Below, in pieces: positions 8,050-12,751 of a stretch of 64,000 nt of DNA. Below the pieces are notes generated by a model that saw only the letters and a program-made list of their open reading frames with translations, did no database searches and was not told where the DNA came from. Where the stretch lies: contig JASBRS010000023.1 of the NCBI GenBank assembly GCA_030149325.1, positions 1-64,000 of the forward strand. The letters are read 5' to 3'. Numbering within the stretch: the stretch's first letter is position 1; every line of letters starts with the position of its first letter. Made by a program: the position numbers and the translations under genes. The DNA comes from Deinococci bacterium. Lineage in GTDB: Bacteria > Deinococcota > Deinococci > Deinococcales > Trueperaceae.

Positions 8050-9294
8050 TCAGTCCGGGAGGGGCGCCCTCTCCTGCAACAGCGCGTCGATGAACTGCCG
8101 GGCGGTGCGCCCGGAGTAGCCGTTGCCCCAGTCGGCGAAGCGCACGGCACGTTCGTGCAGGTCGGGTCCGTGCACGCCGGCATCGCGTGCGAGGGCGTCG
8201 ACGATGGCCAGGTAGTCACGCTGGCCGGCGCTGGGGAAGGTGAGCGTCAGCCCGAAGCGATCGGCCAGGGCCAGGCGCTCGTTGTGGGTGTCCCAGGCGT
8301 GAACGTCGTCGTCCTCGTCGGGCTCGGGGCGATCGGAGAGACGCTCGCGGAGCAGGTGCCGGCGGTTGCTGGTGGCGTAGAGCACGACGTTCCCCGGCCG
8401 CGCCGTGAGGCTCCCCTCCAGCAGCGTCTTCAGCGGATGGTAGCGACGGTCGCCCTGCTCGAAGCTGAGGTCGTCGACGTAGAGCACGAACCGCTGCGGC
8501 CGCAGCCGCAACCGCTCGACCACCTCGGGGAGCCGCTCCAGGTCGTCGCCGGCGAGCTCGACCAGGCGCAGGCCGCGCTCCCCGTAGCGCGGCAGCAGTC
8601 CGCGGACCGCCGTCGACTTGCCGCTGCCCCGGGGACCGTAGAGAAGGACGTTGTGCGAAGGCGCCCCCGCCAGCAGCGCCTCGGTGTTGAGGTGCAGGCG
8701 GCGGAGCTGATCTTCGACCCCGACCAGCGCCTCGGCGTCGGCGACCGCGGGGTGCGCGATGCCGCGCAGCTCGCCGGACTCCCAGCGCAGCGCCGGGTAG
8801 CGCGCCGGCGCTCCGCAGCCGTCGCGCCGGTAGCGCTCGAGCAGCTCGTCGAGCACCGCCTCGGCACGTCCGCATCGGAGCACCGTGGCCAGGCTGGAGA
8901 CCGAGGCGTGCCAGGGGTCCGCGCCGGCCGGCGTCGCCAGCTCCGCGAGGGGCGGCAGGGCGCCAGCGACGGCACGCTCCGCGTCGGCGTGCCAGTCGCG
9001 CCGCAACGCCTCGGTCACCACCTCGAGATCGGCGAGGGCGCTGGCGCGGAGGCCCGCCGGGGGTCGGGGCGTCCCGGCGACGGCGTTCTCCGACTCCAGC
9101 AGGACGGACGCCACCGCCACCCCGGGGTCGGGCCAGCCCTCCTCGATCAGCGCGCGGACCACGCCGGTGTAGGCGGCCTCCACGGCCGCCGAGCCGCCGG
9201 CTGCGCCGGACCGGTGGAGGACGTCGTCGAGGCCGGCCAGGGCACGCCAACTGGCGCGCCGCTCGAGCTCGGTGAAGACCATCAGCGGCCGCAT
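8050..9294 (-). CDS. DUF815-like AAA ATPase
   Basis: A 414-aa ATP-binding protein of the DUF815-like AAA family, function unknown. The N-terminal 180 residues are helical and not recognised. The P-loop GPRGSGKST is at residues 220-228, Walker B is FVLYVDDLSF near 265, and an Asn/Arg-rich sensor (ATSNRRHLL) follows. The end, YSGRTARQFIDALL, is typical of the family. The ATG at 9294 has GAGGAGGT upstream and overlaps the end of the patatin gene by 13 bp, so the two are translationally coupled. Confidence 0.85.
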   Translation of the reverse strand: MRPLMVFTELERRASWRALAGLDDVLHRSGAAGGSAAVEAAYTGVVRALIEEGWPDPGVAVASVLLESENAVAGTPRPPAGLRASALADLEVVTEALRRDWHADAERAVAGALPPLAELATPAGADPWHASVSSLATVLRCGRAEAVLDELLERYRRDGCGAPARYPALRWESGELRGIAHPAVADAEALVGVEDQLRRLHLNTEALLAGAPSHNVLLYGPRGSGKSTAVRGLLPRYGERGLRLVELAGDDLERLPEVVERLRLRPQRFVLYVDDLSFEQGDRRYHPLKTLLEGSLTARPGNVVLYATSNRRHLLRERLSDRPEPDEDDDVHAWDTHNERLALADRFGLTLTFPSAGQRDYLAIVDALARDAGVHGPDLHERAVRFADWGNGYSGRTARQFIDALLQERAPLPD

Positions 9295-10193
9295 GCCACC
9301 TCCTCGCCGCGGAGTCGGGCCCGGAACTCGGGCGCCGCCGCCAGCGCCGCGCGCATGGCGGTCTCGCCGGCGGCGATCGACTGCGGCGACTTGTGGAAGT
9401 CCCACCACGCGGCGGGCGGCGCCTCGCGTACCAGCAGCCCCCCGCGGGGGACCCGCAGGCCCCGGCTGTACGAGCGCAGCGAGATCGCCAGCCCCCGGAC
9501 CATCTGGCCGAAGGGGCCGCTCGCGCGGGTGCGACCGGCCGCGCGCTGGAATCGCCGGCCCGTGGGCGACGCGTTGAAGCGTCGGATCCAGCGGATGATC
9601 CGGGCGTTCTCGACGTCGACGCCGGCGTGGAGCCCGATGGTCAGGTCCGGTCCGAGCGTCCGCAGGGCCTCGAACGGAACGGTCTGGACGAAGCCGCCGT
9701 CGATCAGCACCTGGCCGTCGATGTGCACCGGAGCGAACACGCCGGGGAGGGCGCAGCTCGCCTGCACCGCGCGGGCGATGCTGCCCTCCCGGATCACGTG
9801 CAGGCGCCCCGTCGCGAGGTCGGTGCAGGCCACCGCGAAGGGGATCTGCACGTCGTCGAACCCGGCCCCGAAGAAGAACTTGCGATCGAGCCAGCGTGCC
9901 AGCCGCCGACCGTGGATGATGCTGCCGCGATGGAGGCCGAAGTCGAGCCCCTGCAGCCAGATCTCGCCGGTGTTCTGCTCCCGCACCAGCCGCTCCAACT
10001 CCAGCGCGGGCATCCCCAGCGCGTAGAGCGCGGCGATGATGGCCCCGTAGCTGGTGCCCGCCAACGCGCCGGGCGCGGCGCCCTCGGCCTCGAGCACCTT
10101 GAGGGCTCCGATGTGGGCCAGGCCGCGTGCCGTGCCCCCACCGAAGGCCACCCCCAGGAGCGGCCTGCCTCCGTGCGAAGCGGCCCCGTTCAT
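9282..10193 (-). CDS. Patatin-like phospholipase (RssA/YlbK type)
   Basis: Patatin-family serine esterase, 303 aa, predicted to hydrolyse acyl ester bonds of membrane lipids. The oxyanion loop GGGTARG (18-24), the nucleophile elbow GTSYG (46-50, Ser48) and the catalytic Asp165 in DGG are all present. There is no signal peptide, so it is cytosolic or peripheral. The ATG at 10193 is 6 nt after a TAGCAT box, so it is probably leaderless. The C-terminus overlaps the DUF815 ATPase gene, forming a two-gene operon divergent from dnaX. Confidence 0.92.
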   Translation of the reverse strand: MNGAASHGGRPLLGVAFGGGTARGLAHIGALKVLEAEGAAPGALAGTSYGAIIAALYALGMPALELERLVREQNTGEIWLQGLDFGLHRGSIIHGRRLARWLDRKFFFGAGFDDVQIPFAVACTDLATGRLHVIREGSIARAVQASCALPGVFAPVHIDGQVLIDGGFVQTVPFEALRTLGPDLTIGLHAGVDVENARIIRWIRRFNASPTGRRFQRAAGRTRASGPFGQMVRGLAISLRSYSRGLRVPRGGLLVREAPPAAWWDFHKSPQSIAAGETAMRAALAAAPEFRARLRGEEVACGR

Positions 10194-10199
10194 GGGCCC

Positions 10200-10205
10200 A
10201 TGCTA
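10200..10205 (-). promoter_or_regulatory. -10 box of the patatin operon (leaderless type)
   Basis: TAGCAT on the minus strand lies 6 nt before the ATG at 10193. Confidence 0.5.
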
Positions 10206-10287
10206 CACCGGCCCTCCCCCGTCGCCGTCGGCCGGGACGCGCCAGCGACGCGCATCGACGGCCTCCGGCGGCGGCGGGCAGCGGTGG

Positions 10288-10293
10288 TACAGT
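10288..10293 (+). promoter_or_regulatory. -10 box of dnaX (leaderless type)
   Basis: TACAGT lies 8 nt before the dnaX ATG, with no Shine-Dalgarno sequence between. Confidence 0.55.
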
Positions 10294-10301
10294 GACCCCT
10301 G

Positions 10302-11984
10302 ATGTCGGCGCTCTACCAACGGGCACGCCCCGTCCGGTTCGACGAGGTGGTGGGCCAGGACCACGTCATCGAGGTCCTCGGCTCGGCCGTCCGTCGGGGC
10401 CGCATCGGGCACGCCTACCTGTTCTCGGGCCCCCGCGGCGTCGGCAAGACCACGACCGCCCGCCTGCTGGCGATGGCGGCCAACTGCGAGAACGAGGACG
10501 CGTCGCTGCGGCCGTGCGGGACCTGCGAATCGTGCCGCCTGGTGCAGGCGGGCGCGCACCCCGACGTGACCGAGCTCGATGCCGCCTCGAACAACTCCGT
10601 CGACGACGTCCGTGAGCTGCGCGAACGGGTGGGGCTGGCAGGCCTCCGCGGGGGCACCCGGGTGTGGATCCTCGACGAGGCGCACATGCTGAGCCGCGCG
10701 GCCGCCAACGCCCTTCTCAAGACCCTCGAGGAGCCGCCCCCCGGGCTGCTCTTCATCCTCGCCACCACCGAGCCCGAGAAGCTGCCACCGACGGTGCTGT
10801 CGCGCTGTCAGCACTTCCGCTTCCGGCGGCTGGCGGAGGACGAGATCGTCGGGAAACTGACCGGTCTATGCGCGTCGGCGCAGGTCGACGCCGAGCCCGA
10901 GGCGCTGCGGCTGGTGGCGCGCGTCGCCGACGGCGGCATGCGCGACGCCGAATCGATGCTGGAGCGCCTGCTGCTGATCGAGGGCGGCATCACGGCGGCA
11001 GCGGCCGAGGAGGCGCTGGGGCTCCCACCCCACGAGCGGCTCGAGACGATGGCGGAAGCGCTCGCCGCCGCCGACCTGGCGACGCTGCTGGCGGAGGCCG
11101 ACGGCCTCTACCGAGCGGGCTTCTCGCCGCGCACCCTGGCCGAGCAGCTCGGCCGCACCCTGCGCGATGCCCTGGTGGGCTCGGTCCGCGGCGACGGCTT
11201 CCGGCTCGACCTCCCCGACGACGCCCTCATGCGGAGCCTCCACCTGCTCGACGACGACATGGAGCGCTTCGTGCGCCACAACGATCTCTACGCCCTCGAG
11301 GTGGCGCTGATCAAGATCCTCAACGCCGCCCGTGACGACCTCCCCGTGGTCGTCACGGCCGACGCCCCGCTGCCGTCCGCGGCGGGGACGGCCCGGGGCG
11401 CGCCGCCCGAGCGACCGGCCCCGGCCGGTCCCCGCACCGGGGCCCCGACCGCCGACGCGACCGACGACGCGACCGACGTCACGGCGGAGGCGGAACGCGA
11501 GGCGGCCCCCCGGGCCGGGTCCGCTCCGGCCGCGGGGACCGCTCCGCAGGCCCGTCGGCACGGCGCCGAGGAGGAGGCTCCCGCCCCCTTCGACCCCCAT
11601 GGCCGCGCTCGGCCCAAGCGCGAGAGCGCGCGTCGGCAACCCGACGCGGACACGTCCGCGGCCGAGGAGGCTGCAGACGCCGGCGCACCGGCCGCGCACG
11701 AGGAGCCGGGTGCGGCGAAGGAGCCGGCCGCCGAGCGCCCGATCTCCTGGCGCGCCGTCAAGGCGGCCGCCGGCGCACAGCTCAAGGCCTTCCTCATGCC
11801 GGCCCAGGAGAGCGTGGAGGGCTCGGTCGTCCGGCTCCGCTACGACGCCGTGCATCGCTTCCACCACGGGCAACTGCTGCAGCGCAGCGAAGAGCTGGCC
11901 GCGCTGGTCACGAAGGTGGCCGGGCCGGGCGCCACCGTGCTGATCGAAGGACCCGAAGGCGGTACCCCGAAAAAAATAGTCTGA
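10302..11984 (+). CDS. dnaX: DNA polymerase III gamma/tau subunit, 0-frame product
   Basis: Clamp-loader ATPase of the replicase. Residues 1-230 carry the AAA+ module: GPRGVGKTT at 43-51, zinc cysteines at 62, 72, 75 and 78, DEAHML at 125-130, and an Arg-finger region TVLSRCQ. A clamp-loader collar follows to about 340, then a Pro/Ala-rich linker, then a tau-like domain (about 480-550, beginning ISWRAVKAAAG). The 0 frame stops at TGA 11982-11984 just after AAA AAA ATA GTC. The -1 frame from the A7 run (11970-11976) is open to 12751 and is listed separately, giving an 816-aa long form. The ATG at 10302 is probably leaderless. ybaB and recR follow, as in many bacteria. Confidence 0.95.
   Translation: MSALYQRARPVRFDEVVGQDHVIEVLGSAVRRGRIGHAYLFSGPRGVGKTTTARLLAMAANCENEDASLRPCGTCESCRLVQAGAHPDVTELDAASNNSVDDVRELRERVGLAGLRGGTRVWILDEAHMLSRAAANALLKTLEEPPPGLLFILATTEPEKLPPTVLSRCQHFRFRRLAEDEIVGKLTGLCASAQVDAEPEALRLVARVADGGMRDAESMLERLLLIEGGITAAAAEEALGLPPHERLETMAEALAAADLATLLAEADGLYRAGFSPRTLAEQLGRTLRDALVGSVRGDGFRLDLPDDALMRSLHLLDDDMERFVRHNDLYALEVALIKILNAARDDLPVVVTADAPLPSAAGTARGAPPERPAPAGPRTGAPTADATDDATDVTAEAEREAAPRAGSAPAAGTAPQARRHGAEEEAPAPFDPHGRARPKRESARRQPDADTSAAEEAADAGAPAAHEEPGAAKEPAAERPISWRAVKAAAGAQLKAFLMPAQESVEGSVVRLRYDAVHRFHHGQLLQRSEELAALVTKVAGPGATVLIEGPEGGTPKKIV
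11970..11976 (+). promoter_or_regulatory. Slippery A7 run in dnaX, candidate recoding site
   Basis: Seven A's in a region of very high GC, read as AAA AAA A in the dnaX frame, with the stop two codons later. A purine-rich GAAGG (11955-11959) lies about 10 nt upstream, where a stimulatory Shine-Dalgarno-like element would sit. A -1 ribosomal slip or an 8-A transcript would enter the long open frame. Confidence 0.7.
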
Positions 11985-12751
11985 CGGGGCCCCGCGTTGC
12001 GGGCGCCCCGGCATCCTCCCCGCCGACGTCGTCGGGACCGGCCGCAGCGCAGCACGCGCCCGAGGCCGGCGAGACCGCACCGAGCGCGACCGCCCGGAGC
12101 GAAGCCGCCCCGAGCGAAGTCACTCCGAGCAACGACGTCCCGAGCAACGACGTCCCGAGCAACGACCTCCCGAGCAACGACCTCCCGAGCGCGGACGCGA
12201 GCGCACCGCCGAGCGGACCCGCGGCCGACCCGGACCGCGCCGGCGACGGCGGTGGCAACGGCGGTGGCGACGGCGGTGGCAACGGCGGTGGCAACGACAG
12301 TGGCGAGGGCGGCGGAGACGACGCCGACACCTTCCCCGACGCCATCCCGGACGACGCCGTGCTCGGCCGCGAGGAGCTGCCCGCCGACCTCTTCGATCGG
12401 CCCCCCATCCGCGTCGCCGACCGGCCCCGGTCGGACGCGTCCATGCGGCAGGGACCCCGGCGCCCAGCGCCGGCCCCGGGGCGGGCGGACGGCTTGCCCA
12501 CCCCCGACGGAGGCGACCTGGGCAAGGCGCTGCTCGGAGCCGACGCCGACGACGCAACGCGTACCGCCGTCCAGGACACCGTGCAGGCCATCCTCGAGCT
12601 CTTCCCCGGGGAGGTCGTGGCGGTGACCCCACGCGGCGAGCCCGACGACGACGAGTCCACCGGGACGGGAGCGGGCGGCACCGAGCCGCCGACGGCCGGT
12701 CCCGACGACGGCGCGCCCGGGGTGGACGACGACGAGGCACCCCTGGGGTGA
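11975..12751 (+). CDS. dnaX: dnaX -1-frame extension (long tau form)
   Basis: If reading slips -1 in the A7 run, translation continues 258 codons from 11975 without a stop, giving an 816-aa DnaX. The extension is Pro/Ser/Asp-rich, with four PSND[V/L] repeats and Gly-rich GGGN/GGGD repeats, whose unit lengths are multiples of three. Near its end it has TRTAVQDTVQAILELFPGEV (residues 210-229 of the extension), which resembles the usual extreme C-terminus of bacterial tau (helix followed by LF-G-x-V-V). Third codon positions are almost all G or C, as in neighbouring genes. This supports real coding. The alternatives are a true frameshift mutation or a base-call error in the homopolymer. Confidence 0.7.
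   Translation, partial: NSLTGPRVAGAPASSPPTSSGPAAAQHAPEAGETAPSATARSEAAPSEVTPSNDVPSNDVPSNDLPSNDLPSADASAPPSGPAADPDRAGDGGGNGGGDGGGNGGGNDSGEGGGDDADTFPDAIPDDAVLGREELPADLFDRPPIRVADRPRSDASMRQGPRRPAPAPGRADGLPTPDGGDLGKALLGADADDATRTAVQDTVQAILELFPGEVVAVTPRGEPDDDESTGTGAGGTEPPTAGPDDGAPGVDDDEAPLG
11985..12010 (+). promoter_or_regulatory. Hairpin downstream of the dnaX slippery site
   Basis: CGGGGC+CCCGC (11985-11995), loop GTT, then GCGGG (11999-12003), one bulged C, and GCCCCG (12005-12010) make an 11-bp GC stem starting 8 nt after the A7 run. The spacing fits a frameshift-stimulating stem-loop. Confidence 0.7.
12125..12184 (+). repeat. Four tandem 15-bp repeats in the dnaX extension
   Basis: CCGAGCAACGACGTC occurs twice and CCGAGCAACGACCTC twice, back to back, coding (PSND[V/L])4 in the -1 dnaX frame. 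A further Gly-rich 12-bp-type repeat follows at about 12244-12297. Confidence 0.9.

Follow-up and report, generated by a model that had tools for sequence, protein, structure and literature searches.

The dnaX gene of this Trueperaceae bacterium is split at a run of seven A residues: the 0 frame ends just after the run, and the -1 frame stays open far beyond it. How would such a gene give rise to a short and a long DnaX, and does the arrangement belong to one assembly or to the family? A sequence-only reading of the window (the whole 64,000-nucleotide stretch of DNA analysed) had proposed a programmed -1 frameshift that lengthens the protein, and the frames, A7 run, stop and hairpin it described were all found again here.

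Two reading frames of dnaX

The gene consists of two overlapping parts:

10302..11984, + strand: dnaX, 0 frame, short (gamma-like) form of 560 aa, with clamp-loader domains of the AAA+ type and a domain of the tau C-terminal type, from domain searches
11984..12751, + strand: -1 frame extension that completes the long (tau-like) form of 816 aa; a low-complexity linker leads to a conserved LELFPGEVVAV at the C-terminus, from profile match and dN/dS

The 0-frame product was identified as DnaX by the NCBIfam model PRK14963 (DNA polymerase III subunits gamma and tau), with 643 bits against a cut-off of 601, and it also matches Pfam DNA_pol3_delta2. A weak match to Pfam DnaX_C, below the cut-off, covers aa 482-546 of the 560-aa product. 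Because this region of the short form still bears a weak likeness to the tau C-terminal domain, the names 'gamma' and 'tau' are meant by analogy. The 0 frame ends with CCG AAA AAA ATA GTC TGA, and from the junction onward the -1 frame has no stop until the one ending at 12751, giving a joined product of 816 aa. Lengths recomputed from the window agree with the earlier assignment of 560 aa to the 0 frame and 816 aa to slippage, and the -1 frame indeed stays open past the 0-frame stop.

The putative slip site

The junction contains the following elements:

11970..11976, + strand: putative A7 slip run, AAA AAA A, from the window sequence and genome run counts
11972-11978, + strand: putative slip site in the Trueperaceae register, A_AAA_ATA, from register comparison with relatives
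11976..11978, + strand: ATA codon, in the slot that AAA or AAG fills in relatives as second codon of the heptamer, from codon counts and site comparison
11979-11981, + strand: GTC codon between ATA and the stop, from the window sequence
11982..11984, + strand: 0-frame TGA stop, exactly one codon past the slip site, likewise in all 30 sites compared

With a GC content of 72.7%, the window contains no other run of at least six A on either strand, in keeping with the claim of an A7 run in a very GC-rich gene. The whole genome (3.04 Mb) has three A7 runs, and the other two apparently lie outside the sense strand of any long gene. In a rough set of 39 window genes (17,385 codons), AAA occurs 9 times and ATA twice, AAG 295 and ATC 522 times. 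The stop had been placed two codons later, which is true if counted from the run, as ATA and GTC separate AAA AAA from TGA. The site A_AAA_ATA allows perfect re-pairing at the P-site codon only, and it contains the tetramer A_AAA and the near-cognate G_AAA_AAA. Genes for tRNA-Lys with UUU and CUU anticodons are both present in the window's genome; the census of this one genome gives no explanation for the choice of AAA or AAG across Trueperaceae.

Conservation of the junction in Trueperaceae

Among 39 Trueperaceae genomes examined, 34 were readable at the junction and 5 were unreadable. The sequence-only reading had suggested looking for a conserved A-run plus hairpin in relatives, and the same layout was found in 31 of the 34 readable dnaX genes: a heptamer, one codon, the 0-frame stop and a long open -1 frame, with a hairpin right after the stop as part of the common layout. 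In addition, a scan of contigs with a narrow alignment matched 12 named Trueperaceae/Deinococcales MAG loci. The site comparisons cover 30 sites and leave out the thirty-first member, L061, which has an extra stop near its gene start. The heptamers in register are A_AAA_AAA (16 sites), A_AAA_AAG (12, including T. radiovictrix), G_GGA_AAA (1) and the A_AAA_ATA of the window (1), so that a canonical X_XXZ_ZZN heptamer lies in register at 29 of the 30 sites.

Close relatives with an uninterrupted dnaX and no A-run, which would speak against a programmed shift, are not the rule. The gene is uninterrupted in 3 of 34 genomes (L011, L033 and L063). L011 has no A-run. L063 keeps the hairpin, and its run is broken (AAGAAAAGC). 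L033 (G008) carries A9 and reads the long form in frame 0, both other frames being closed by stops; it is nested among inverted members in the DnaX tree and is an apparent reversion to the Thermus layout.

Hairpin and upstream element

Two further elements flank the putative slip site:

11955..11959, + strand: GAAGG, Shine-Dalgarno-like, possible 5' stimulator, ending 10 nt upstream of the A-run
11985..12010, + strand: stimulatory-type hairpin, 11 bp with one bulge, beginning directly after the stop, from folding, stem-length and pair comparisons

The window segment 11979-12020 folds with -24.1 kcal/mol (z = -2.4). The hairpin had been described as 11 bp, 8 nt downstream; the stem has 11 bp once one bulge is allowed, and the distance is 8 nt from the end of the A-run and 6 nt from the ATA codon, placing a structure a few nucleotides past the slip site, as expected of a -1 frameshift site. 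Over the 30 sites, the folding energy just past the stop has a mean z of -1.9. Because stems differ in length and the MAFFT alignment of the hairpin region is non-structural, distance from the stop served as the basis for comparing them. The contiguous stem just past the stop measures 6.3 bp versus 3.5 bp elsewhere in the same genes (combined p ~1e-14, uncorrected for kinship), and the window alone gives a modest p of 0.07 in this test. The paired bases vary on both sides among members, the fourth pair, for example, being G-C, A-U or C-G, with pairs taken from each sequence's own fold.

GAAGG ends 10 nt before the A-run, as the spacing of about 10 nt noted earlier implied. Across the family, the upstream stretch pairs to the anti-Shine-Dalgarno sequence with -8.5 kcal/mol versus -3.5 in same-phase control stretches, and it overlaps a conserved GP(G/E)G peptide motif.

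Coding potential of the -1 tail

A profile built from the relatives' -1 tails with the window left out matches the -1 frame of the window (E = 3.7e-7), and the other frames are unmatched. Further matches of the profile are the in-frame tails of L011, L033 and L043 (a sequence of sister family f2) and, more weakly, one sequence of sister family f4. In all 10 tail pairs compared, dN is lower than dS, with ratios of ~0.3-0.6 indicating loose constraint. A motif of the LFPG(R/K)V type closes nearly all Trueperaceae -1 tails, and the LFPGEV ending reported for the window is present as LELFPGEVVAV. On these comparisons, the -1 tail is real coding sequence. It is mostly low-complexity, and a Pfam search of the -1 tails found no domain. 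The comparison shows that the family has conserved the heptamer in its register, the stop, the place of the hairpin and a -1 tail that is coding.

In the window, the linker between the hairpin and the C-terminal motif (12100-12300) carries PSND[V/L] about four times, then GGGN/GGGD repeats. The -1 tail of L029 (G035) ends without LFPG; VFPGRV occurs in its third frame, probably by an assembly indel or in a decayed tail.

Proposed mechanism and alternatives

Heptamers that keep the register while changing to A6G or even GGGAAAA, together with a constant 6 nt between slip site and hairpin, argue for -1 ribosomal frameshifting in the family. We propose, with a probability of about 0.82, that Trueperaceae express dnaX with a programmed -1 ribosomal frameshift, which makes the product longer. 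That slippage occurs, how efficient it is and that it is translational are inferred. Some ribosomes would stay in frame 0 and stop one codon past the slip site, giving the short gamma-like DnaX, and others would slip back one base at A_AAA_AAA/G and go on to complete the long tau-like DnaX. Slipping would be aided by the hairpin 6 nt downstream and probably also by the Shine-Dalgarno-like stretch upstream. In the window, the P-site peptidyl-tRNA-Lys would re-pair perfectly one base back at A_AAA_AUA while the rare A-site AUA is decoded slowly, and AAU (Asn) would then be read in the -1 frame. G_AAA_AAA, one codon earlier, is an alternative slip site; we favour A_AAA_AUA because the hairpin spacing fits. 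The protein sequence alone cannot separate A_AAA_AUA, G_AAA_AAA or an A8 message, as all yield ...PKKNSLTG....

Several points count against this proposal. The window heptamer is non-canonical: re-pairing on AAU is not expected of the tRNA that reads AUA and only the P-site tRNA re-pairs well, so the frameshift efficiency may differ at this site. Shifting by -1 is said to depend less than +1 shifting on a slow A site (PMC5009743). Three family members manage without the arrangement, and the Shine-Dalgarno-like signal overlaps a peptide motif.

The long form could also arise from transcription, if RNA polymerase added a base on A7 and the resulting A8 messages were read through, as on the Thermus A9 with the roles reversed. 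T. thermophilus dnaX works by such slippage (PMC1088944), an A8 or A9 run is kept at this place in the sister families, where stops close the two remaining frames, and the A7 of the window is joined by an A9 run in the relative L013, in the same phase. We nevertheless consider this explanation unlikely, as the run in 12 relatives is no longer than A6, with a G behind it, and the site in one is GGGAAAA, whereas known slippage runs are often at least 8 nt (PMC3711429). The register of the heptamers and the 6-nt distance to the hairpin also suit the ribosome, and the sister A8/A9 sites have no consistent hairpin.

Another cause would be an assembly or sequencing error, in which case the true run would be A8 and one unbroken frame would encode all 816 aa. 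In favour of this, the assembly is a draft of 102 contigs, errors are common in homopolymers, and dnaX is uninterrupted in three relatives. However, the stop lies at the exact conserved distance, and the hairpin and open -1 frame are as in 30 other genomes, among them the complete T. radiovictrix genome (PMC3072082). Because the stop position and the hairpin are conserved, a true A8 run is very unlikely. Even less credible is that the tail is a separate protein made by termination-reinitiation, or that the -1 frame is an unexpressed, decaying remnant. The former would draw on the Shine-Dalgarno-like stretch upstream and on GTG or TTG codons of the -1 frame that, at 10 of the 30 sites, overlap the stop or lie close to it, but around the junction the -1 frame of the other 20, the window included, lacks any ATG, GTG or TTG. 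The latter conflicts with the coding constraint and end motif of the tail, which are kept across Trueperaceae.

Comparison with known dnaX systems

Recoding that lengthens DnaX has precedents. In Antonov et al. 2013 (PMC3711429), 17 dnaX genes from 12 genera need recoding for tau; nine of them have A10 and three have A9, A8 or A7 (Chlorobi), and transcriptional slippage is suggested for these. Atkins et al. 2016 state that a single base can reverse the roles of the dnaX frames (PMC5009743). Similar to the genes described in the former study, Trueperaceae dnaX has two ORFs, a 0-frame stop just past the slip site and a -1 shift giving the longer subunit, with the -1 frame encoding a conserved tau-like tail. 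Unlike the A-run genes described there, it mostly has ribosome-type heptamers (A6G, A7, GGGAAAA) plus a hairpin; the 17 genes may include Truepera.

The dnaX gene of E. coli shares with the family the A_AAA_AAG of 12 relatives, an upstream Shine-Dalgarno-like element and a downstream stem-loop of ~11 bp, but its shift shortens the product (gamma), whereas that of Trueperaceae lengthens it. The gene of Thermus thermophilus is homologous and from the same order, with its slip run at the corresponding place late in the gene, and the tails of the two types appear homologous, judged by the profile matches to one f2 and, more weakly, one f4 sequence. In T. thermophilus, the long form lies in frame 0 and slippage on A9 shortens it, and the sister runs have 8-9 A without a consistent hairpin. 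The window does not fall into this class, defined by ~9 A in a row and a long product read in the 0 frame, as it has A7 with the long product in the -1 frame. Thermus-type slippage was likewise rejected as the family mechanism, given the A6G and GGGAAAA sites and the hairpin at fixed spacing.

The earlier claim of a logic reverse to that of E. coli and Thermus is thus supported as to the reversal, but the reversal is not unprecedented, having been described for other bacteria in PMC5009743 and PMC3711429. Within the library searched, no paper was found that links Truepera with a dnaX frameshift like this. The kind is already known from a few other bacteria; what this case adds is that the arrangement is the rule in a whole family, at ribosome-type sites, that it apparently replaced the Thermus form there, and that the site of the window is atypical.

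Evolution of the inverted form

Most sequences read from the four sister families of the order have A8 or A9 at the corresponding place. Their long form lies in frame 0, and each of the other two frames soon runs into a stop. No consistent hairpin was found at these sister sites. Three f4 sequences (L038, L042 and L046) have a short palindrome directly after A9, e.g. GCCTAG-ACC-CTAGGC, imperfect in L042, which is no better than chance in the stem test.

A fully supported branch of the DnaX tree parts the sister families from Trueperaceae, and the inverted state requires four changes on this tree. One gain and three losses would fit these changes, the order of events being inferred. Trueperaceae apparently switched dnaX from a Thermus-type form, with the long form in frame 0, to the inverted form. 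A fuller scenario, which we regard as tentative and slightly more doubtful than probable, is that the whole family switched from Thermus-type transcriptional slippage (0 frame = tau) to a ribosomal -1 shift (0 frame = gamma), and that the window lineage now shifts at the non-canonical A_AAA_AUA, where the near-absent A-site AUA would promote -1 slippage of peptidyl-tRNA-Lys.

One gene in one order appears to use slippage of both RNA polymerase and the ribosome, with opposite default products and with single-frame reversions. Two recoding modes in one order would make it possible to ask why two DnaX forms persist and how easily the modes interconvert, and the question is open to experiment in T. 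radiovictrix, which is cultured and has the E. coli-type heptamer. For annotators, the long DnaX of Trueperaceae is easily missed or labelled a pseudogene.

Elsewhere in the window, a 758-aa ORF with a DUF815 ATPase domain (8050-10326, - strand) overlaps a long same-strand ORF, patatin-like by eye (9282-10193, - strand), and the start of the DUF815 gene is putative.
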